39,192 nucleotides of DNA from assembly GCA_900258555.1 (NCBI GenBank), contig LT984854.1:47715-86906 (forward strand), written 5' to 3'. Positions 3,093-25,811 of the stretch are shown here, piece after piece; position 1 is the first letter of the stretch; each line of letters opens with the position of its first letter. The position numbers and the translations under genes are program-made. Under the pieces are notes generated by a model. The model saw only the letters and a program-made list of their open reading frames with translations, was not told where the DNA came from and searched no databases. This stretch comes from an uncultured Desulfobacterium sp. (GTDB lineage Bacteria > Desulfobacterota > DSM-4660 > Desulfatiglandales > Desulfatiglandaceae).

Positions 3093-3377
3093 CTATGGTT
3101 CCTTGGGAAGCTGTGCACTATGCCAAACTGCAACAATCCAGACCTCGTTATCTTTCACTCTGTAAAAGAAGCGATATGGAGATATGATTACCTCACGAAA
3201 GGGAAGTTCTGGAAACTCCGGTATGACCCTTCCAGATTCAGGAAATTCCTCAAGCCTGCGTAAAGCTTTTTCAGCTCGTTCACGAAAACGTTTCGCAGCA
3301 GAAGGTTTATCGCGTTTGATGAAGGACAATCCTGATAAGAACTGAGCTCTGGCAGATGGGGTAAAGCGAACTTTCAC
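3093..3377 (-). CDS. RelE/ParE superfamily toxin
   Basis: Toxin of a type II toxin-antitoxin module, 94 residues, the normal size for RelE/ParE proteins. The N-terminus begins with a beta strand and a Phe-Thr-Pro-Ser-Ala element, then a helical hairpin rich in Arg/Lys, then the central Gly-Arg-Val-Ile-Pro-Glu-Phe segment, a Phe-Arg-Glu-Val strand, Pro-Tyr-Arg-Phe-Phe-Tyr-Arg-Val, and a final strand ending in Val-Trp-His-Ser. This order matches ParE/RelE folds. Whether it targets gyrase (ParE-like) or ribosome-bound mRNA (RelE-like) cannot be settled by eye; the absence of an obvious RelE catalytic triad leans toward ParE. Its start overlaps the last base of the antitoxin stop, the usual translational coupling. 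Confidence 0.9.
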   Translation of the reverse strand: MKVRFTPSARAQFLSGLSFIKRDKPSAAKRFRERAEKALRRLEEFPESGRVIPEFPELPFREVIISPYRFFYRVKDNEVWIVAVWHSAQLPKEP

Positions 3378-3655
3378 TATCGTTTCTCGTTCAAAATTAG
3401 ATCGGCTTCCGCAAGGACAGTTTCAAGATCGTAGCCTTCGCCAATTTCTATTTCCCTCTCTCCTTTGGCTAAAAGACGCAGTAGTTCTTTGTCGTGTTCA
3501 GATTGTTCGAATGTTTCAACGCTTTGCATAACTGCAGCGGCCCGGCCACGCTGGGTAATAATTAGGGGTTCTTTTGATTCTTTTAGTTTTTTTAGAATGT
3601 TAGCAGCATCCTGCCTTAAATCGCTAACAGGAATAATATTCATTAACTTTCCCAT
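3377..3655 (-). CDS. Phd/YefM family antitoxin
   Basis: Antitoxin partner of the adjacent RelE/ParE toxin, 92 residues. The N-terminal half is a Phd/YefM DNA-binding domain: Ile-Ile-Pro-Val-Ser-Asp-Leu-Arg near residue 10, then the Glu-Pro-Leu-Ile-Ile-Thr-Gln-Arg-Gly-Arg-Ala-Ala-Ala-Val segment characteristic of the family. The C-terminal half is acidic and helical and would thread over the toxin. The first ATG (3655) has an AGGAGG site 6 nt upstream; a second ATG four codons later is too far from that site. The gene sits upstream of the toxin, the common order. The pair is probably autoregulated through the operator at 3671-3686. Confidence 0.9.
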   Translation of the reverse strand: MGKLMNIIPVSDLRQDAANILKKLKESKEPLIITQRGRAAAVMQSVETFEQSEHDKELLRLLAKGEREIEIGEGYDLETVLAEADLILNEKR

Positions 3656-5829: not shown

Positions 5830-6531
5830 CTATTCCCTGCTCTGCCCGAATATCCTCAGGAGCATCAGGAAAAGGTTGATAAAGTCAAGATAGAGGGAAA
5901 GGGCGCCAAGGATCGCCCCTTTTCTTACTACGCCTGCCTCAAGGTCGGCCGGCTGGGTAAGGGCCATGTTTTTAAGCTTCTGTGTGTCGTAGGCCGTGAG
6001 CCCGACAAATATGATCACGCCCAGGTAGCCGATGACGTAGTGCATGGTGCTGCTTCCGATAAAGATATTGACAACCGAGGCGATTATGATGCCGATCAGG
6101 CCCATCATGCAGAATCCCGCAATAGAGGTCAGATCCCTTTTTGTTGTCCAGCCATAGACACTGCATCCGGCGAAGGTACCTGCGCAGATAAAGAATGTGC
6201 TTGAGATCGAAGACTGCGTATAGACAAGAAATATGGGCGAAAGCATTGCCCCCATAAGAGATGAATACAGGACAAAAAGGCCGGTTGCGGTCCCTGCACT
6301 GATCCTGTTGACCATCCCGCTTATGGAGACCACAAGTCCGATGGTGCCGATGATAAGGACGATCTGGGCCAGCGGCGAAACGACCAGTCTGAGCATGGCC
6401 TCATTATTTGCCACATAAAATGCCACAAACCCGGTCAGCGCAAGCCCGATTGCCATCCAGTTATAAACGCTCCTAACGAAGCTATTGACCATAACCTCTG
6501 CACGCGGTCTTGATATCGAATAGTTATTCAT
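5830..6531 (-). CDS. Bax inhibitor-1/YccA family membrane protein
   Basis: Seven-transmembrane protein of the BI-1/TMBIM family, 233 residues, the standard bacterial length. Bacterial members include the calcium-leak channel BsYetJ and the FtsH-interacting YccA. Visible hallmarks are the N-terminal Phe-Val-Arg-Ser-Val-Tyr-Asn-Trp-Met motif, six to seven hydrophobic helices, the Thr-Ala-Tyr-Asp-Thr-Gln segment, which carries the Asp of the pH sensor, and the C-terminal Tyr-Leu-Asp-Phe-Ile-Asn-Leu-Phe-Leu stretch with its second conserved Asp. A GGAGG site is 6 nt from the ATG. It is divergent from the PFKFB-like gene, and the two promoters appear to interlock (6593-6627). Function in this organism is unknown. 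Confidence 0.92.
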   Translation of the reverse strand: MNNYSISRPRAEVMVNSFVRSVYNWMAIGLALTGFVAFYVANNEAMLRLVVSPLAQIVLIIGTIGLVVSISGMVNRISAGTATGLFVLYSSLMGAMLSPIFLVYTQSSISSTFFICAGTFAGCSVYGWTTKRDLTSIAGFCMMGLIGIIIASVVNIFIGSSTMHYVIGYLGVIIFVGLTAYDTQKLKNMALTQPADLEAGVVRKGAILGALSLYLDFINLFLMLLRIFGQSRE

Positions 6532-6627: not shown

Positions 6628-6717
6628 GATGCCTTCTTTGCCTGACCGGTCGTGGTGCCCTTCTTACTACCAAGACATAGATAAGGAGTACGATTTAAGA
6701 GGCTGTAACGTCATATC

Positions 6718-7935
6718 ATGAAAAACAAGAAACTTTACATCGTTATGGTGGGGCTCCCTGCCAGGGGAAAGTCCACTATCGCCAGAAAGTTGAAGGAAAA
6801 TCTGGAAAAAGACAATGTCAGGACGAGGATCTTTAATAACGGTGATCTGAGGAGGAGGCTTTCCGGAGAAGAGACTTGGAGACCTGAGTTTTATGACCCG
6901 AAAAACAAAGAGGGAGTTGCCCTGAGAGAAAAGATCGCCATGATCAATATAAACGGCGCAAAAAAGTATCTGGGAGGCAATGGCCAGGTCGCCATCCTCG
7001 ATGCGACAAATGTCAGTCAGGCCAGAAGAGAAAAAATAATCGCCCTCCTGGATGACCACCCGCAACTGTTCATTGAATGTATCAACGATGATGAGGATAT
7101 TCTGGAGGCGAGTATTCTTAGAAAAGTTTCTCTTTCTGAATTCAATAGATTGGATAAACATACGGCGATCAGTGTCTTCAAGCAGCGGATCCGCTATTAT
7201 CAGCAAATATATAGCCATCTTAAAAATGAAAGAAATTTTGTAAAACTCCACTCCCTGCATAACCAGATTCTGGAGGAAGAGATAAGGGACAATATCCCAT
7301 TTTACAGCAGGATCAGAGACTTTATTGTCACTGATACGGTCAAGAATCTGTTTTTGATCAGACATGGCGAGACCTTCTTCAACCTGGAGGACAGAATAGG
7401 GGGCGACTCCGGTCTTACGGAAAAGGGAAACGCCCAGGCCAAGGCCCTTGCCCAACATTTTAAGACCAGGAAAATACCCTATATCTTTACCAGCAAGATG
7501 AAAAGGACCATCCAGACCGCTAATCCTATAAAACGGCTGCAGAAAGACTGCGCTATCATCGCCCTTAAAGAGTTCGACGAAATTGACAGCGGTGTCTGTG
7601 AATGCATGAGCTATGAAGAGATCCGCAGGGAAATGCCCGAAGTATATTCCAGGAGAAAACAGGATAAATACAATTATATTTATCCTGATGGAGAAGGCTA
7701 TGTGTCCATGAAAAAGAGGATAGATATGGGCATCAAAAAGGCCATTTATCTGGCCAGCAACTCCCAAAACATCATGATTGTCGGACATCAGGCGGTAAAC
7801 AGGATGATCCTCTCACATTTTCTTTACAGGCGTACCGAGGATGTGCCCTATATTTATATACCTCAGGACAAGTACTACCATATCATTGCCACCCAGGACA
7901 AAAAGCTCTTCCAGTTGAGGAGATACAAGGATTAA
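6718..7935 (+). CDS. bifunctional 6-phosphofructo-2-kinase/fructose-2,6-bisphosphatase homologue
   Basis: Homologue of the eukaryotic PFK-2/FBPase-2 (PFKFB) enzyme that makes and breaks fructose 2,6-bisphosphate, the allosteric regulator of glycolysis. Kinase domain: P-loop Gly-Leu-Pro-Ala-Arg-Gly-Lys-Ser (residues 12-19), Phe-Asn-Asn-Gly-Asp with Arg-Arg (39-47), Phe-Tyr-Asp-Pro (58-61), and Asp-Ala-Thr-Asn (95-98), all matching PFKFB rather than generic kinases. Phosphatase domain of the histidine phosphatase superfamily: Arg-His-Gly-Glu (215-218, phospho-acceptor His216), Arg-Ile-Gly-Gly-Asp (226-230), Glu288 in Glu-Ile-Asp-Ser-Gly-Val-Cys-Glu, a Gln-Asp-Lys-Tyr...Tyr-Pro substrate loop (315-323), and second His357 in Gly-His-Gln-Ala-Val. 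The 405-residue length lacks the N- and C-terminal regulatory extensions of animal isoforms. No glycolysis gene is adjacent. The P-loop so close to the ATG fixes the start. Confidence 0.9.
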   Translation: MKNKKLYIVMVGLPARGKSTIARKLKENLEKDNVRTRIFNNGDLRRRLSGEETWRPEFYDPKNKEGVALREKIAMININGAKKYLGGNGQVAILDATNVSQARREKIIALLDDHPQLFIECINDDEDILEASILRKVSLSEFNRLDKHTAISVFKQRIRYYQQIYSHLKNERNFVKLHSLHNQILEEEIRDNIPFYSRIRDFIVTDTVKNLFLIRHGETFFNLEDRIGGDSGLTEKGNAQAKALAQHFKTRKIPYIFTSKMKRTIQTANPIKRLQKDCAIIALKEFDEIDSGVCECMSYEEIRREMPEVYSRRKQDKYNYIYPDGEGYVSMKKRIDMGIKKAIYLASNSQNIMIVGHQAVNRMILSHFLYRRTEDVPYIYIPQDKYYHIIATQDKKLFQLRRYKD

Positions 7936-8042
7936 CCCTTTGAATTATTTTATCCTTGAAATAAGTACCACGATTAAGTTAACTTTCTGGCCGCTGAAAC
8001 TTTACAAAATTGGCTGAGACTTTATTATTAAGGAGTCTGTTG

Positions 8043-8804
8043 ATGAAGATTGCCGTAAGTGGAAAGGGCGGTGTTGGGAAGACCACCTTTGCCTCCTTTT
8101 TAATCAGGGCACTTGCCCTTTCGGGCAAGAAGGTCTTGGCCATTGACGCGGACCCTGACGCCAATCTGGCCCAGGCCCTTGGCGTAAAGGGCGCCGAAAA
8201 TATTGTCCCCATTTCACAGATGAAGGAGTTGATCGAGGAAAGGACCGAGGCCAAAATAGGTTCTATGGGCGCCTTTTTCAAACTCAACCCAAAGGTGGAT
8301 GACCTGCCCGAAAAGTTGTCTGTGGTGGTGGACGGTGTCAAGGTTATGGTGATGGGGGGTGTAAAAAAGGGTGGATCAGGTTGCATCTGCCCGGAGAGCA
8401 CCCTTTTGAAGACCCTCGTAAGCCACATAGTGCTTGCACGGGATGAGGCGGTGGTGTTGGATATGGAGGCTGGTCTTGAACACCTGGGCCGCGCAACGGC
8501 AATGTCTGTTGATGAGCTCGTGGTAGTGGTTGAGCCCGGAAGACGCAGTGTGGAGACCGCGTACCAGATCAGAAAACTTGCAAAAGATATCGGGGTCAAG
8601 AAACTGAGTTTTGTCGGCAACAAGATCAGGACGGAAAAAGACAGGGAGTTTCTTATAGAGCAGATGCCGGATTTTGTATTCCTGGGCTTTCTCCCTTACA
8701 GGACAAGTATCATTGAAGCGGACCTGGATGGTATGGCACCTTTTGAAAAGGACACTGAGACCCTTGAGCTGGTAAAGGGGATGCTCGAACATTTTGGGGT
8801 ATGA
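8043..8804 (+). CDS. cooC: CooC-type nickel-insertion ATPase
   Basis: P-loop ATPase of the MinD/SIMIBI class resembling CooC, the maturation factor that helps load nickel into carbon monoxide dehydrogenase. The ATG at 8043 is chosen because AAGGAG precedes it and the protein then starts directly with the beta strand of the P-loop, Gly-Lys-Gly-Gly-Val-Gly-Lys-Thr-Thr (residues 7-15); 253 residues. A Gly-Cys-Ile-Cys-Pro-Glu motif near residues 115-120 corresponds to the Cys-X-Cys metal-binding site at the CooC dimer interface. An Asp-Met-Glu-Ala-Gly switch motif and Gly-Asn-Lys nucleotide-base motif follow. No CODH subunit lies in the window, so the target must be encoded elsewhere; a related CooC-like role with another metalloenzyme is possible. 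Confidence 0.85.
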   Translation: MKIAVSGKGGVGKTTFASFLIRALALSGKKVLAIDADPDANLAQALGVKGAENIVPISQMKELIEERTEAKIGSMGAFFKLNPKVDDLPEKLSVVVDGVKVMVMGGVKKGGSGCICPESTLLKTLVSHIVLARDEAVVLDMEAGLEHLGRATAMSVDELVVVVEPGRRSVETAYQIRKLAKDIGVKKLSFVGNKIRTEKDREFLIEQMPDFVFLGFLPYRTSIIEADLDGMAPFEKDTETLELVKGMLEHFGV

Positions 8805-14665: not shown

Positions 14666-15061
14666 TTATTTACCTGTTCTCATTACCGATGAGAGCCTCC
14701 TTGCCTGTCTTACAAACTCCTCAAACGGGCAATTGGTGTTTATCCCCGGGCATGCCTCCTTTGCCAGTTCCCAGTTGTCCCTGTCATTTACAATTGCCGG
14801 AAAAAAGGGCCAAAGGCAGCACCTGTCAGGTTTTACAGGGTGTATTAGACAGCTTTTTTCCTTGGAATAATAGCGACAGAATCCATCGTCTCCGGTCCTG
14901 ATATAAAGGCGGCCATTTCTTTTCTCACAGGAGGCCGTTAAAAACTCTTCGGATGTAAGGCCGAGAAAGGCAGAGATCCTCTTTACCTCTTCATCGCTTA
15001 CAGAGATACCGCCTTCTCCATAGCAACACTCTCCGCAGGTTTGACACTCAAAGGCCTTCAT
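14666..15061 (-). CDS. YkgJ-type cysteine cluster protein
   Basis: Member of the YkgJ/UPF0153 (CxxCxxCC) family, 131 residues, thought to bind Zn or an Fe-S cluster through conserved cysteines; biochemical role unknown. The N-terminus shows Phe-Glu-Cys-Gln-Thr-Cys-Gly-Glu-Cys-Cys, then Asp-Gly-Phe-Cys-Arg-Tyr-Tyr, Ser-Cys-Leu-Ile-His-Pro-Val-Lys-Pro-Asp-Arg-Cys-Cys-Leu-Trp-Pro, the core signature of the family. It overlaps the stop of the helicase-exonuclease gene by 4 nt (ATGA), meaning coupled translation with that gene. Confidence 0.9.
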   Translation of the reverse strand: MKAFECQTCGECCYGEGGISVSDEEVKRISAFLGLTSEEFLTASCEKRNGRLYIRTGDDGFCRYYSKEKSCLIHPVKPDRCCLWPFFPAIVNDRDNWELAKEACPGINTNCPFEEFVRQARRLSSVMRTGK

Positions 15062-17988
15062 TGCATTTCATGCTCCAAGGATCTCATAATACTATCCAGT
15101 TTCCAGTCAACCAGCAGCCTGAGTCTCCTGCCGCCCTTCTTTTCCCTGTAGATCAGACAGCCGTTTGCAAGCCCGTATTCAAATAGGTCCCGTGTCAGCG
15201 CCACATCTTTTTGGCAGTACTCGGCCAGTTTTTCCATCTCTCCCTCCCGAAACCATTGAACCGCCATAAGACCATCAGCAGACTTTTCCATATTAAGGGT
15301 CTCTTTGGCCAAATGGTCGAGGGACAAACGGAAGCCCACCAGCTTAAAGACCTCTTCCAGGATGTCAAATGTGGGAAGGGCGTTAAGATTCTTGCTGGTG
15401 TATGCACCAAGCACACTGTAGTCAAACCTTTTGATATTAAAACCCACTATCAGTTGGGCGCGTTCCAGGTGGGCGATCAGAGAGTCAATATCGTCTTCCC
15501 GATATATAAAAAAACGACCCTCAAGGCTGTCATAGACCACTGCCACAGCTACCTTCATAAGGTGCGTGTTACTCCATCCGCCCACCTCTTGGGCTAGTTT
15601 CTGTGTCTCAATATCAAGGACTAGCCACCGTGGACCATCCTTTTGTTCCTGTTCAGTATCTTCCTCGACTGTAAACTGTTCCTCTTGTTCTGTCCCGGCA
15701 GAGATCTCGCTTAAGGGGATATACCCCAAAAGTCCCTCTAGTATCAACAGGGCGGACTTCTTATCCAGAGGCTTGTTTCCGGAACCGCACTTGGGTGAAT
15801 GGATGCACGAGGGGCAGCCGTCTTCACATTCACAGGATCTTACATGATTCAATGTCTTTTCGAGCAGTTCCAGGATGATCTCAAAGCCGTGCTGGGCAAG
15901 ACCCACACCCCCTGGATAGCCATCATATATAAAAATTGCGCCCTTACCCACCTGGGGGTGAAAGGGATAGCAGATGCCCCCGATATCGTTTCTGTCGCAG
16001 AGGGCAAATAGCGGGAAAACGCCTATGGCCGCATGCTCAATGGCGTGTATGCCGCCCATGAAGTGAAGACCTTTTTTTTCAACAAAAGATTTTAAAACAG
16101 GCTCTATCTCCACCCACAGTCCCCTTGTCTCAAAGGTCTGCTGCGGCAGTTCCAGCGGAAAGACCCCCAGGAGTTCCTGTCCGGTCAGGCCCCGCTTTTC
16201 ATAGCCTGTCACTGTCTCTGTAACCTTTAACTCCCCCTCCCGGACCAGAAACTGCGCTCTCGGCCTGCTTCGATGTACCTTTATTATTTCCGTCTCTTTT
16301 TCTGTCCTCACCCTGGTAAAATAATCAGGCTCAGAGACGTGGACCACGATGTCCTTCTTCTCCAAAATAAGTGCCTCAACCGCATATTGTCTTGCTCGAT
16401 GGAGGTAGATGGCCCCTGGGTGACATTCCTTAAACGCCCTGTTTTCGTCAATGGTCCCGATGGCCTGACCTGTTTCTTTTTCAAATATGGTATAGGTCTG
16501 ACCGGCGGAGCGAATGTTTACATGAAGATGCGGATTTCGGCCAGGCGACATCCAGGCAAGAGGTTCATCCGCGGTCCTCACCAAAGCGCCCTGACCTTCA
16601 AGTTGCTCCAGATGCGCTGTCAAATCCTTGGGCCAGTACTTTCGATCTTCAAGGGTGATAGGGACCTCGGCAGCCGCACACGGAAGATGTGCCTTTACCA
16701 CATAGGGATTATCAGGGTCCAGGACGGCGGCCTCAAAGGACCTGCCAAAAAAGTCATCCGGATTTTTGACAAAGTATTGGTCCAGGGCGTCCGGCTTTGC
16801 CATCAGAACGATCATGGATTCCCTTCCGGCCCTTCCCACCCTGCCGCCCCTCTGCCAGGTGTTTATGACCGTGCCGGGGTAGCCCACCAGCAGACAGATA
16901 TCCAGGTAACCGATATCAATTCCCATCTCGAGTGCGCTTGTCGTAACCACCCCCAATAGATCACCGCTTGCGAGCCTTTGCTCTATCTGTCTTCTCTCCT
17001 CGGGCATGAAGCCGGCGCGGTATGAACTTATCTTTTTCTTCAGCTCCGGCGACAGCCGGGACACCCAGACATGGATCAACTCCGTCACCTTTCTGGACTG
17101 GGTGAATACAATGGTGCGATAACCCTTGCGAATACAGTCAACAAAGAGCCTGGCCGCGGAAAAATTAGTGCTTGCCTCAGGGTTTAGGAACAGAAAATGC
17201 TGGCCTGCCCTGGGAGCACCCATTGATTGGACAACCTGAAGCCTCTCCCCAATCAGGACCTCACCGAATTCTTCCGGGTTCTTAACTGTAGCCGATAACA
17301 AGATAAACCTCGGGCTTGATCCGTATTGAACGCACAGTCTCTTAAGCCTTCGAATGATCTGATTAAGGTGCGAGCCCAGGATTCCCCGATAGGTATGGAC
17401 CTCGTCCAAAATAACAAATCTAAGGTTCTTGAGCAGCATCTCCCAGCCCTGATGAAAGGACAGTATCCCCCGGTGGAGCATATCAGGGTTGGTAAAAAGG
17501 ATCTGAGGCATGCGGCTCTTGATCTGCTTTCGTTTGTAAGGGGTAGTATCGCCATCATATATTTCAGCCCGGATCCTCGGTCCCTCCATAAGCTTCAGCC
17601 ACATGGAAAGTCCCTTTAACTGGTCCTGCTCCAGGGCCTTTAAGGGGAAAATATACAACGCCCTGGAATCCCTGTTCCTTATAATCTCTTCAATCACAGC
17701 AAGGTTGTAAATAAGGCTTTTGCCGCTTGCCGTGGGAGTGGCCACAATCACATTTGAGCCCTGTCTTATCCAGGCGATTGCCTCTGACTGATGGCTGTAA
17801 AGCCGGGTAAGTCCGAGTCGCCCCATGGTCTTTAAGATATCAGGATGAAAATCCGGCAGTTCCCCATAAAAAGGCTCTTTTGGGGGGATGTATCTGTGAT
17901 GGACAAAGGCATCGCCAAAGTCGGGGTGGTTTTTTAGAAATCCAATATAATCGGAGAGATTCACCTGCGGGCTCTTTTGCCTGCCCAA
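15058..17988 (-). CDS. MrfA-like helicase fused to MrfB/YprB-like 3'-5' exonuclease
   Basis: Large fusion protein, 976 residues. Residues about 50-450 form a superfamily 2 helicase: motif I Ala-Thr-Pro-Thr-Ala-Ser-Gly-Lys-Ser (83-91), DEVH box (195-198), Ser-Ala-Thr (232-234), motif VI Gln-Arg-Gly-Gly-Arg-Val-Gly-Arg-Ala-Gly-Arg (379-389). The MrfA-type C-terminal domain (DUF1998) ends with a cysteine cluster at 719, 721, 725, 728 and 734. After an acidic linker (about 764-784), residues 785-950 form a DEDDy exonuclease with Asp792/Glu794, Asp856, Tyr924 and Asp928. In Bacillus subtilis MrfA and MrfB are separate proteins that repair mitomycin C damage. The frame's start is TTG (17988) without a clear ribosome site; GTG eight codons later is an alternative. 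First gene of the 17988-13270 gene string. Confidence 0.93.
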   Translation of the reverse strand: MGRQKSPQVNLSDYIGFLKNHPDFGDAFVHHRYIPPKEPFYGELPDFHPDILKTMGRLGLTRLYSHQSEAIAWIRQGSNVIVATPTASGKSLIYNLAVIEEIIRNRDSRALYIFPLKALEQDQLKGLSMWLKLMEGPRIRAEIYDGDTTPYKRKQIKSRMPQILFTNPDMLHRGILSFHQGWEMLLKNLRFVILDEVHTYRGILGSHLNQIIRRLKRLCVQYGSSPRFILLSATVKNPEEFGEVLIGERLQVVQSMGAPRAGQHFLFLNPEASTNFSAARLFVDCIRKGYRTIVFTQSRKVTELIHVWVSRLSPELKKKISSYRAGFMPEERRQIEQRLASGDLLGVVTTSALEMGIDIGYLDICLLVGYPGTVINTWQRGGRVGRAGRESMIVLMAKPDALDQYFVKNPDDFFGRSFEAAVLDPDNPYVVKAHLPCAAAEVPITLEDRKYWPKDLTAHLEQLEGQGALVRTADEPLAWMSPGRNPHLHVNIRSAGQTYTIFEKETGQAIGTIDENRAFKECHPGAIYLHRARQYAVEALILEKKDIVVHVSEPDYFTRVRTEKETEIIKVHRSRPRAQFLVREGELKVTETVTGYEKRGLTGQELLGVFPLELPQQTFETRGLWVEIEPVLKSFVEKKGLHFMGGIHAIEHAAIGVFPLFALCDRNDIGGICYPFHPQVGKGAIFIYDGYPGGVGLAQHGFEIILELLEKTLNHVRSCECEDGCPSCIHSPKCGSGNKPLDKKSALLILEGLLGYIPLSEISAGTEQEEQFTVEEDTEQEQKDGPRWLVLDIETQKLAQEVGGWSNTHLMKVAVAVVYDSLEGRFFIYREDDIDSLIAHLERAQLIVGFNIKRFDYSVLGAYTSKNLNALPTFDILEEVFKLVGFRLSLDHLAKETLNMEKSADGLMAVQWFREGEMEKLAEYCQKDVALTRDLFEYGLANGCLIYREKKGGRRLRLLVDWKLDSIMRSLEHEMQ

Positions 17989-21714: not shown

Positions 21715-24009
21715 CTATTTCTTGTTTGCCGCTTCTCTTTTCAAGCTGAACAGAACCCTTTCCGGGGTCAGCGGCAGTTCCCTGATTCGAACGCCGACGG
21801 CATCGTGGATCGCATTGGCGATGGCGGCAGCGGGCAACAATACCGGCGGATTCCCGACCCCTCTGGCCCCATAAGGGCCGTTAGGTGTTTTTGTTTCTGT
21901 AACAGCGATCCGGATTTTCGGCTGATTTATGGCAAACGGCATTTTATAGTCTATCAGGTTCGGATTGGTGACCCTTCCACCGTCGAAAACAACTTCTTCC
22001 CACAGGGCATAGCCGAGACCCATCATGATCCCGCCCTGGATCTGTCCTTCCGTTCCCAATGGGTTTATCATTCGTCCCGCATCATGACAAGAGTATATAT
22101 TCTCGACACGGACCATGCCTGTGTCCCTATCCACGCTTACCTCCACCACCTGACAGGCATATGTGTGGGCCGGTGTGGCAGGATACGGGTTTCCTTCCAC
22201 CTTTTCATAGGCATACGCCTGAAAAGGCGCAAGAACAGTGCTTTTTCCCATAGGGGCGCCGCCTTGGAAGAAATAGGAACCCATGGCCAACTCCAGCAAA
22301 CTGATGGCCTTTTCGGGGTTATCCCGGTCTCGGATCATCTGCCCGACCAGTTCCAGGTTTTCAGCAGGGCTTTCCAGCATGGCTGCCGCACCACTGAAAA
22401 GCTGCACCTTTAAATCCCTTGCCGCCTCAATCACCGCATTTCCCATATTAAAGGTGACCCGGTCCCCGAATGTGCCTGTATCATAGGGAGCCGTATCCGT
22501 GTCACCGACGGTAACGGCAATCTGATCGGCAGGTATGTCCATCTCCTGCGCCAGTATTTGCGCCAGCACAGTGCTTGATCCCTGCCCGTGGTCAATGGCA
22601 CCTATTACCAGATGAAGGCTGCCGTCTTCACTCAGCTTGACCAAGGCTGACGATGTCATGCCGACGAGTTCGTACTGGCAGCAGCAAAGTCCCCACCCAC
22701 GGTTTTTACTCTTTTTCCTCTGCTTCCAGTTACTGATTTTGGCGACACTGTTTAAGGCCTCTTGTATGCCCACCGCCTCCATACGTTGTCCGGTTGCGCT
22801 TGTATCCCCATCGGAGATCAGATTCTTAATTCGAAAATCAAGGGGATCCAGGTTCAACTCCCTTGCAATACGGTCCATGTGGGATTCACAGGCAAAACCG
22901 GCCTGGACGCCCCCAGGGCCTCTCATGAAGGAAAAATTCATCTTATTAGTGTAGACACTGAGACTGTCTATCTTGAAATGGGGCGTCCGGTAGGGACCCA
23001 GGATGGTGTTGGCCCCCAAAGCCGCCACACCGGGCCCATGACCGGCATATCCTCCGGTATCAAACAGGAGACGGGCTTCACGGGTGACAATCTTCCCGTC
23101 CTTTTTTACACCTGTCTTCAGGTGGATCACGCAACCGTGCCGGGCTGAGGTGTAGGTCATCATTTCAGATCGAGTCAATTGCATTTTCACAGGTTTCCCC
23201 GTCATCCTTGCCAGAAGCGCACAGAAGTGCTCCACAGTGATATCCGTTTTTCCGCCGAATCCCCCCCCCACTTCCGTGCCGATGACCCGAATCCGGTTGA
23301 GGGGCAACCCCATGATCTCCCCCAGGGCCATCCGGATCGCAAATATTGCCTGGGTGGATGTCCAAATCTCCAGACGTCCGTTCGAATCAAACCGGGCCGT
23401 GACGGCATGCGGTTCGATGAAGCCATGGTGTTGGACAGGAGTGGAAAACCGATCTTCGAAAATCAGATCAGACTCCCGCCATCCCTGCTCCGGATCTCCT
23501 CCGGAGATCTTTGTCTGCCCGCATACATTTCCGTATCGTATGAGACCAGGCATGGCGCAGGCATAAGCCTCAGCGCCTTCATGGATCAAAGGTGCCCCGG
23601 GGCCAAGCGCCTCTTCAGGATCAAACACGGGTTTCAGCTCTTCATATTCCACCTGAATCAATTCAGCGGCTTCCTCGGCAATCTCCCGTTTGGTAGCGGC
23701 CACCACGGCAAGTGGTTCGCCCATAAAACGGGCCTTGTCGCCTGCCAGTACGGGGGTGTCTTTCACCATCAAGCCCCAGCATACCTGGGGGACATCTTTA
23801 GCGGTAAGAATAGTCTTCACACCGCTGAGTTTTTCCGCTTTTTCCGTATCCACATGGACTATCCTGGCGTGAGGATAGGGGCTTGCCAGGAATTTCGCAT
23901 GGAGCATACCAGGCATTTTTATATCCGGGCCATATACCGCATCACCGCATGCCTTGCGCCGCCCGTCCACTCTGGCAAAGGGCCGGCCGATTATCTCATT
24001 TTTTGCCAT
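21715..24009 (-). CDS. xanthine dehydrogenase family molybdopterin-binding large subunit
   Basis: Large (CoxL-like) subunit of a molybdenum hydroxylase, 764 residues from the ATG at 24009, which has an AAGGAGGA site; the frame's ATG at 24135 would only add unrelated residues read from the small-subunit gene. Family marks: Gly-Arg-Pro-Phe-Ala-Arg-Val-Asp-Gly at the N-terminus, Val-Gly-Gly-Gly-Phe-Gly-Gly-Lys (Moco loop), Phe-Met-Arg-Gly-Pro-Gly-Gly-Val-Gln (second Moco loop, not the Cys-Ser-Phe-Arg loop of true CO dehydrogenase), and Gly-Gln-Gly-Ser-Ser-Thr. At residue 720 the motif that should read Val-Gly-Glu-Pro-Pro reads Val-Gly-Asn-Pro-Pro: the catalytic Glu is Asn (codon AAT, 21852-21850). 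The substrate is unknown. Overlaps the small-subunit stop by 14 bp. Confidence 0.93.
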   Translation of the reverse strand: MAKNEIIGRPFARVDGRRKACGDAVYGPDIKMPGMLHAKFLASPYPHARIVHVDTEKAEKLSGVKTILTAKDVPQVCWGLMVKDTPVLAGDKARFMGEPLAVVAATKREIAEEAAELIQVEYEELKPVFDPEEALGPGAPLIHEGAEAYACAMPGLIRYGNVCGQTKISGGDPEQGWRESDLIFEDRFSTPVQHHGFIEPHAVTARFDSNGRLEIWTSTQAIFAIRMALGEIMGLPLNRIRVIGTEVGGGFGGKTDITVEHFCALLARMTGKPVKMQLTRSEMMTYTSARHGCVIHLKTGVKKDGKIVTREARLLFDTGGYAGHGPGVAALGANTILGPYRTPHFKIDSLSVYTNKMNFSFMRGPGGVQAGFACESHMDRIARELNLDPLDFRIKNLISDGDTSATGQRMEAVGIQEALNSVAKISNWKQRKKSKNRGWGLCCCQYELVGMTSSALVKLSEDGSLHLVIGAIDHGQGSSTVLAQILAQEMDIPADQIAVTVGDTDTAPYDTGTFGDRVTFNMGNAVIEAARDLKVQLFSGAAAMLESPAENLELVGQMIRDRDNPEKAISLLELAMGSYFFQGGAPMGKSTVLAPFQAYAYEKVEGNPYPATPAHTYACQVVEVSVDRDTGMVRVENIYSCHDAGRMINPLGTEGQIQGGIMMGLGYALWEEVVFDGGRVTNPNLIDYKMPFAINQPKIRIAVTETKTPNGPYGARGVGNPPVLLPAAAIANAIHDAVGVRIRELPLTPERVLFSLKREAANKK

Positions 24010-24484
24010 GACGTCCTCCTTGTAGCGGCCTGACCGAGGAAACCGCATCGATAATTTTCTGATATCCAGTGCACCTGCAAAAATTTCCCGAAAGGTACAT
24101 CCGGATATCATCCCCGGACGGATTCGGATTTTCATCCAAAAGGGCCTTTGAGGTTAATATCATTCCGGGCGTGCAATAGCCGCATTGGATGGCCCAGTTT
24201 TCAACAAATGCCTCCTGCAATGGATGGAGGGCGCCGTCTTGGGCCAGTCCTTCAATGGTTAGGATCTTTCTACCTTCCGCCTGCAAGGCCAACACCAGGC
24301 AGGACTTTATTGCCATGCCATCCATCAACACCGTGCAGGCGCCGCAGGCACCGCTGTCGCAACCTGTTTTGGTTCCGGTAAGGTTGAGATGATCACGAAT
24401 AACATCCTGCAACGTCTCTCCGGCATTTACTTCCAGCATATAGTCTATGCCATTGACCGTCAGACAGAGTTTATACTTTTTCAT
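23996..24484 (-). CDS. molybdenum hydroxylase [2Fe-2S] small subunit
   Basis: CoxS-like iron-sulfur subunit, 162 residues, typical. The N-terminal plant-ferredoxin-type cluster is Gly-Cys-Asp-Ser-Gly-Ala-Cys-Gly-Ala-Cys (about 41-50) with its last Cys near 62, and the helical C-terminal domain holds the second cluster: Gln-Cys-Gly-Tyr-Cys-Thr-Pro-Gly (about 100-107) and Asn-Phe-Cys-Arg-Cys-Thr-Gly-Tyr-Gln (about 134-142). All eight ligands are present, so electron transfer from Moco to FAD should be intact. Only 2 bp separate it from the FAD subunit stop upstream, and it overlaps the large subunit. Confidence 0.95.
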   Translation of the reverse strand: MKKYKLCLTVNGIDYMLEVNAGETLQDVIRDHLNLTGTKTGCDSGACGACTVLMDGMAIKSCLVLALQAEGRKILTIEGLAQDGALHPLQEAFVENWAIQCGYCTPGMILTSKALLDENPNPSGDDIRMYLSGNFCRCTGYQKIIDAVSSVRPLQGGRHGKK

Positions 24485-24486
24485 GC

Positions 24487-25353
24487 CTATTTCCTCCTGC
24501 CACTTGAGGCCGCCTTTAGGGCTCTTTGGATAAAGACCTCTATCAACTCTTTTTTATATTCAGCAGATCCTTGAAGATCGGAAACAGGACTGATTTCTTC
24601 TCTTGCCTTTTTGCCGGCCTCTGCAATTGTCTTGCCTGTAACGACTTTTCCCCTGATCACCGCCTCTGCATTTTTGGCCCGTATGGGAACGGGGCCAACA
24701 GCCCCCACGCACAAGCGGATTTCCTTGCAGGTGTCGGTGTCATGGTCTTTTAAAATAAAGGTTCCAACGCCTATGATGGCGGTATCAACGCCTCGGCTGC
24801 TATGTTTGATGTATATGGCATGGCCGAGATCAGGCAAAAGTGGTATGTCTATTTCCGCAAGGACCTCATCCGGCCGTATCGCTGTCTCAAAAAAATCCTT
24901 AAAGAAATTTTCCACAGACATTGTCCGTGCCCCTGTCGCGCTTATGAGCTTCAGCTTGGCCCCCAGCGCCATGAGCGCAGGGGCCACATCACCTGCAGGA
25001 TCGGCATGGCAGAGATTTCCTCCAAGTGTTCCCAGGTTTCTGATCTGAACAGAGGCCAGTTGCTTTTCCATGTCCGCCAGAATCGGCAGATGTTCACGGA
25101 TGAGTGGATCTGTTTCTAGTTGGCGATGAGTGGTGAGGGCGCCGATCTTTAGCGTATTTTTTGTTTTTCTTATAAATTTCAGATCAGCGACTCGGCTGAT
25201 ATCAATAAGAAGGCCGGGCCGGGCCAGACGTTGCCTGAGCAGTGGTACCAAGGATTGGCCTCCGGCGAGGATCTTTGCCTTGTCTCCGTATTTCTTCAAA
25301 CAATCGGTTACCTCGGTAACTGATGCCGCTCGAATATACCGCATGTCTTTCAT
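24487..25353 (-). CDS. molybdenum hydroxylase FAD-binding subunit
   Basis: CoxM-like flavin subunit, 288 residues. FAD-binding motifs are present: Ala-Gly-Gly-Gln-Ser-Leu-Val-Pro-Leu (about 31-39) and Asn-Leu-Gly-Thr-Leu-Gly-Gly-Asn-Leu-Cys-His-Ala-Asp-Pro (about 110-123). The C-terminal CO_deh_flav_C domain follows with Gly-Ala-Val-Gly-Pro-Val-Pro near residue 215. It passes electrons from the Fe-S clusters to an acceptor. Its ATG overlaps the stop of the coxG-like gene by 4 nt. Confidence 0.95.
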   Translation of the reverse strand: MKDMRYIRAASVTEVTDCLKKYGDKAKILAGGQSLVPLLRQRLARPGLLIDISRVADLKFIRKTKNTLKIGALTTHRQLETDPLIREHLPILADMEKQLASVQIRNLGTLGGNLCHADPAGDVAPALMALGAKLKLISATGARTMSVENFFKDFFETAIRPDEVLAEIDIPLLPDLGHAIYIKHSSRGVDTAIIGVGTFILKDHDTDTCKEIRLCVGAVGPVPIRAKNAEAVIRGKVVTGKTIAEAGKKAREEISPVSDLQGSAEYKKELIEVFIQRALKAASSGRRK

Positions 25354-25811
25354 TGTTTCCTTTCCTCATGTTTTAGGATGTCGCTTAATGAGGCCAAAAA
25401 ATTCTTCTCCATTTCTTTGGCCTTGGCCCTGAATATCCTCTCCCCGAAGGTGGCAATTTTTCCGCTGATGGAAAGATTGGAAGTATAGGTCAACCGGGTC
25501 CTGTCGGGATTGATTTCCTCCAGGGCCAGTTGATTTTCCTGCGTAAACCGCCCTGTATGGAACCGGTCCCGTCCTTGCATCTTTGAAACCAGGCGCACGG
25601 GAGGCTGCATTTCGACGATCGTCAACACAACGTCGAACCTCGCCTTTATAGGCCCGATCTTTACCTTTACGGTTCCTTTGAATTCCCCGTTGCTTTGGAC
25701 AGAAACAGATTCACACCCGGGGATACAATTTTTGAGGCATGCCGGGTCAAGAAGTTTTTCCCATACTTCTTTTACCGGGCCATCCAAGGTAATCGATGAT
25801 TCTATGATCAT
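25350..25811 (-). CDS. CoxG-like SRPBCC protein
   Basis: Carbon monoxide dehydrogenase subunit G family, 153 residues, SRPBCC fold. In aerobic CO oxidisers CoxG recruits the enzyme to the membrane; homologues accompany many other molybdenum hydroxylases. Evidence: Ile-Thr-Leu-Asp-Gly-Pro-Val-Lys-Glu-Val-Trp near the start, Leu-Lys-Asn-Cys-Ile-Pro-Gly-Cys (about 30-37), Gly-Thr-Val-Lys-Val-Lys-Ile-Gly-Pro-Ile-Lys-Ala, and Ser-Gly-Lys-Ile-Ala-Thr-Phe-Gly-Glu-Arg-Ile. First gene of the operon; the order G-M-S-L points to one transcript from the promoter at 25983-26011. Confidence 0.92.
   Translation of the reverse strand: MIIESSITLDGPVKEVWEKLLDPACLKNCIPGCESVSVQSNGEFKGTVKVKIGPIKARFDVVLTIVEMQPPVRLVSKMQGRDRFHTGRFTQENQLALEEINPDRTRLTYTSNLSISGKIATFGERIFRAKAKEMEKNFLASLSDILKHEERKQ

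Follow-up and report, generated by a model that had tools for sequence, protein, structure and literature searches.

The gene at positions 6718–7935 of the window, the whole stretch of 39,192 nucleotides analysed here, probably encodes a bifunctional 6-phosphofructo-2-kinase/fructose-2,6-bisphosphatase (PFK-2/FBPase-2), as judged from its sequence and predicted structure, and it belongs to a bacterial family that is strongly tied to class I fructose-1,6-bisphosphatase (FBPase-1). The open reading frame starts with ATG on the forward strand and encodes a protein of 405 amino acids followed by a stop; we refer to it as the PFKFB gene after its eukaryotic counterparts, the enzymes that in animals and plants both form and break down fructose-2,6-bisphosphate, a switch molecule of sugar catabolism, and it is present as a single copy in the genome. 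The features discussed below are as follows.

6697–6702, + strand: possible ribosome-binding site AAGAGG (weak), 15 bases before the ATG, proposed from reading the sequence alone
6718–7935, + strand: bacterial PFK-2/FBPase-2 homologue, identified by the open reading frame, Pfam, whole-length PFKFB matches and purifying selection
6721–7299, + strand: predicted 6PF2K kinase domain, residues 2–194 (Pfam 137.3 bits, cut-off 27; kinase-domain model)
6751–6774, + strand: P-loop GLPARGKS, residues 12–19 (G12, L13, P14, G17 and K18 invariant in 56 homologues)
7000–7011, + strand: DATN motif, residues 95–98, containing the counterparts of Asp124 and Thr126 of PFKFB3 (D95 in 56/56 homologues, T97 in 52/56)
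7348–7902, + strand: predicted FBPase-2-type histidine phosphatase domain, residues 211–395 (His_Phos_1 132.7 bits, cut-off 21.7; model)
7360–7371, + strand: RHGE catalytic motif, residues 215–218, H216 being the predicted phosphohistidine (R215 and H216 in 56/56)
7660–7671, + strand: QDKY substrate loop, residues 315–318 (K317 invariant)
7786–7788, + strand: H357, second catalytic histidine (56/56)

The domain order found with Pfam, an N-terminal 6PF2K domain followed by a C-terminal His_Phos_1 domain, is that of the eukaryotic enzymes, and both scores lie well above the curated cut-offs, so that the profile comparison proposed in the preliminary description came out in its favour. When solved structures were searched, the top twelve matches were all mammalian PFKFB proteins aligned over the whole length (E 2e-63 to 3e-60, ~218 bits), followed by the isolated rat FBPase-2 domain with 127 bits and by other histidine phosphatases with 52 bits or less, which places the C-terminal half nearer to FBPase-2 than to the remaining branch-1 phosphatases. 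CobC (alpha-ribazole phosphatase), phosphoserine phosphatase and dPGM, all of histidine phosphatase branch 1, have the fold and the RHG motif in common with this half, but they score much lower (52 against 127 bits) and below the NCBIfam cut-offs, and they possess no kinase half; the NCBIfam search of the complete protein yielded sub-threshold matches alone.

Structure prediction gave a similar picture. A separate model of the kinase half (pLDDT 91.9) superimposes on PFKFB with an rmsd of 1.5 Å over 200 residues and a Z score of 28.9, the next fold being APS kinase with a Z score of 15.4, and the phosphatase half of the full-length model matches the rat liver FBPase-2 domain with an rmsd of 2.0 Å over 188 residues. 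The full-length model, built from a 56-sequence alignment (mean pLDDT 89.6, pTM 0.84), aligns as a monomer with PFKFB chains over ~390 residues with Z scores of 30–32 and an overall rmsd of ~17 Å, and the two halves are therefore placed differently in the model than in the PFKFB crystals; this altered placement may be real or may be a modelling effect. The score gaps and the specific residues described below rule out a generic P-loop ATPase or a generic histidine phosphatase, and the earlier statement that the similarity goes far beyond the generic is borne out by both sequence and fold, which group the protein with PFKFB and away from unrelated ATPases.

The residues expected of both active sites are present, with the motifs and numbers originally reported (GLPARGKS 12–19, DATN 95–98, H216, E288, H357, QDKY 315–318) all proving correct. 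In the crystal study of PFKFB3 (PMC3177832) the fructose-6-phosphate pocket is surrounded by Thr48, Arg74, Arg75, Arg98, Asp124, Thr126, Arg132, Arg189 and Tyr193, which align, in this order, to S19, R45, R46, R70, D95, T97, R103, R157 and Y161 of the window protein, so that the substrate contacts on which the preliminary description depended are present by alignment. Conservation was scored over 56 bacterial homologues: R45, R46, R70, D95, R103, R157 and Y161 are identical in all of them, T97 is retained in 52, and position 19 is either Ser or Thr. K136 is likewise invariant, the aligned lysine of PFKFB3 being residue 169 in a count one above the numbering of PMC3177832. In the phosphatase half, R215, H216, E288, Y299, R313, K317, Y328, H357 and R362 do not vary, nor does R263, which is a serine in PFKFB3.

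The gene is under purifying selection: compared with L026, the closest relative at 86% identity, dN is 0.075 and dS 1.1. The possibility that the other strand is the coding one was considered and rejected, as the antisense open reading frame of 373 amino acids at 6667–7788 is broken by stops in relatives.

From these data we infer the substrate, both activities, the presence of the metabolite in the organism and its target. The N-terminal half would phosphorylate fructose-6-phosphate at its 2-position with ATP as the donor, and the C-terminal half would remove this phosphate again via a phosphohistidine on H216, with E288 acting as the acid and H357 as the partner. One possibility to be weighed is that a single half is active in vivo, making the protein mainly a kinase or mainly a phosphatase, as is the case for several one-sided yeast isoforms (PMC9721465); the fact that neither half shows any variation in its catalytic residues across the 56 homologues argues against it, and we regard it as distinctly unlikely. 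Another is that this is a paralogue, a kinase/phosphatase couple of the PFKFB fold turned to some other sugar phosphate. Identity to human PFKFB3 is just 37% in the alignment, Q358, which lies beside the second catalytic histidine and is Gln in the window protein and in PFKFB3, is replaced by Arg in 36 of the 56 homologues, and A15 and R16 of the P-loop vary in some of them, all of which would suit such a change of substrate. The retention of the pocket residues of PMC3177832, seven of them without exception, speaks against it and makes this reading very unlikely. The preferred reading thus remains a true PFKFB-type bifunctional protein with intact active sites, and this part of the original interpretation stands.

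The gene is common among sulfate-reducing bacteria and their relatives. A strong PFKFB match was found in 42 of the 297 genomes sampled from the phylum (E <1e-29; the next match, at 1e-8, is clearly set apart) and in 38 of 61 genomes of a set of relatives, the window genome included. Carriers in the named scan comprise Desulfobacterales, Desulfovibrionales, Syntrophales and Desulfatiglandales-type records, plus Scalindua and Brocadiaceae, the anammox planctomycetes being represented by L054, L057, L058 and L059. In a quick tree (SH-aLRT support only) the copies from planctomycetes cluster in a single supported group nested among deltaproteobacterial rows, and among 246 planctomycete genomes sampled a true match was found in none but the Scalindua genome used as the centre; nesting and scarcity together suggest a single transfer into anammox bacteria. 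Many of the labels reading "Myxococcota" in this tree belong to records titled "Deltaproteobacteria bacterium" and probably do not denote Myxococcota, and the sole eukaryotic sequence sits on a very long branch. By these comparisons the bacterial family is old and mostly vertically inherited, with one apparent transfer. A phage or mobile-element origin was rejected, as no whole-length match occurs in the plasmid, phage or IMG/VR collections, and a PFKFB-like match is absent among the listed viral predicted structures.

Fructose-2,6-bisphosphate inhibits fructose-1,6-bisphosphatase in some eukaryotic cells, and the bacterial gene co-occurs closely with the class I form of this enzyme. In the phylum sample class I FBPase is present in 42/42 carriers and in 128/255 non-carriers, which corresponds to p 1e-11 when counted by genome and to ~0.007 when nine families are roughly counted instead, in both cases ignoring ancestry; in the relatives set a strong class I FBPase match occurs in 37/38 carriers and 3/23 non-carriers (p 6e-12, again ignoring ancestry), and the co-occurrence is confounded by ancestry. 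The two genes are also neighbours in many genomes: in the relatives set, FBPase-1 precedes the PFKFB gene by 2.1–6.2 kb in the same orientation in 23 of 38 carriers, spanning 20 genera and 2 families, and in 18 named loci it lies upstream at a distance of three to six genes. The conserved block consists of class I FBPase on the plus strand, then genes on the opposite strand for an HgdB-like protein, a metallophosphatase, a radical SAM protein (activating-enzyme-like) and a Bax1-inhibitor-like membrane protein, and then PFKFB on the plus strand; it was observed in the upstream flanks of L028, L029, L032, L034, L035, L037, L038, L040, L042–L044, L046, L048–L051, L061 and L072. In the window genome FBPase-1 and the PFKFB gene are 1.0 Mb apart, and the Bax1-inhibitor-like and radical SAM genes still adjoin the PFKFB gene. 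Since the genes between FBPase-1 and PFKFB are conserved as well, and two of them are kept in the window without FBPase-1, the linkage may be passively inherited synteny, which is a fair alternative for the gene order and less so for the co-occurrence.

On the proposed mechanism, fructose-2,6-bisphosphate would most likely restrain class I fructose-1,6-bisphosphatase, and the PFKFB and FBPase-1 pair would decide which way carbon flows at the level of fructose-6-phosphate. The preliminary description had instead pointed, as a possibility, to a pyrophosphate-dependent phosphofructokinase (PPi-PFK), and a phosphofructokinase as the main target, whether of the PPi type or either of two longer ones, has to be considered. 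The window genome does contain three genes of the PFK family, of which one carries the motifs GGDDT/PKTMDND, which we take to be the PPi-type pair, going by positions 104 and 124 in E. coli, and the two longer ones carry GGDGT/PKTIDND; furthermore, plant PPi-PFK is activated by fructose-2,6-bisphosphate. Against this, a PPi-PFK orthologue is found in 31/38 carriers and 13/23 non-carriers (Fisher p 0.04), 89% of the genomes sampled from the phylum have PFK-family genes regardless, and one carrier, G302 (95% complete), is missing from the set with a PFK match at E 1e-20. Because PPi-PFK tracks the PFKFB gene so weakly and class I FBPase tracks it almost perfectly, FBPase-1 is the better candidate, and the target originally suggested is not upheld. 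We consider a phosphofructokinase unlikely as the main target and give FBPase-1 about an even chance of being it.

The presence of PFKFB in bacteria is under-appreciated but already on record. According to the passage of PMC9721465 that cites Rider et al. 2004, fructose-2,6-bisphosphate occurs in almost all eukaryotes, and bacteria are without it except for Desulfovibrio desulfuricans; a 2026 preprint (PMC12873801) nevertheless calls the regulation of PFK by this metabolite eukaryote-specific. Given that attribution and the commonness of the family in Desulfobacterota, the novelty implied by the preliminary description does not hold. Our search of the open-access literature found no paper on how widely the bacterial family is distributed or on its tie to FBPase-1; these two points are new, and the novelty is modest.

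D. desulfuricans, as cited in PMC9721465, represents a bacterial lineage in common with these genes, and Desulfovibrionaceae homologues fall in one family with the window protein, but the lineage of the window is another one, its nearest named relative (L026) being a Desulfobacteraceae record. With the eukaryotic PFKFB1–4 (rat testis 1BIF, human PFKFB3 2AXN) the protein has in common the domain order, the folds of the two halves, the fructose-6-phosphate pocket, the catalytic triad and the substrate loop; it differs in having only a few residues before the kinase core rather than a long N-terminal regulatory extension, in having no long C-terminal tail, in the predicted placement of the halves and in Arg 263.

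A conserved bacterial family with intact sites and a tie to FBPase-1 makes the claim of eukaryote-specificity directly testable and bears on the origin of the eukaryotic switch. Many sulfate reducers, syntrophs and anammox bacteria make sugars from small carbon compounds, and the findings, if true, hint at how gluconeogenesis is controlled in these organisms. It is conceivable, though we put it forward tentatively, that throughout the bacterial clade fructose-2,6-bisphosphate serves natively as a second messenger directed at FBPase-1, made by enzymes lacking the regulatory tails of eukaryotes, and that this system may have ties to whatever gave rise to the eukaryotic one.

An operon reading of the immediate surroundings was rejected, as the genes at 5830–6531 (− strand) and 8010–8804 (+ strand) offer no functional link to the PFKFB gene; the latter, directly downstream, encodes a MinD/ParA/NifH-like P-loop ATPase for which no equivalog model was reached. 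Elsewhere in the window, abutting genes for a ParE-type toxin and a Phd/YefM-type antitoxin lie at 3093–3655 (− strand), and a large DEAD/DEAH helicase at 15058–17988 (− strand) resembles TIGR03817 with 725 bits, under the cut-off of that model. A molybdenum hydroxylase cluster occupies 21715–25811 (− strand) and comprises the large, Fe-S and FAD subunits together with a CoxG-like protein, the large and Fe-S subunits scoring below the equivalog cut-offs.
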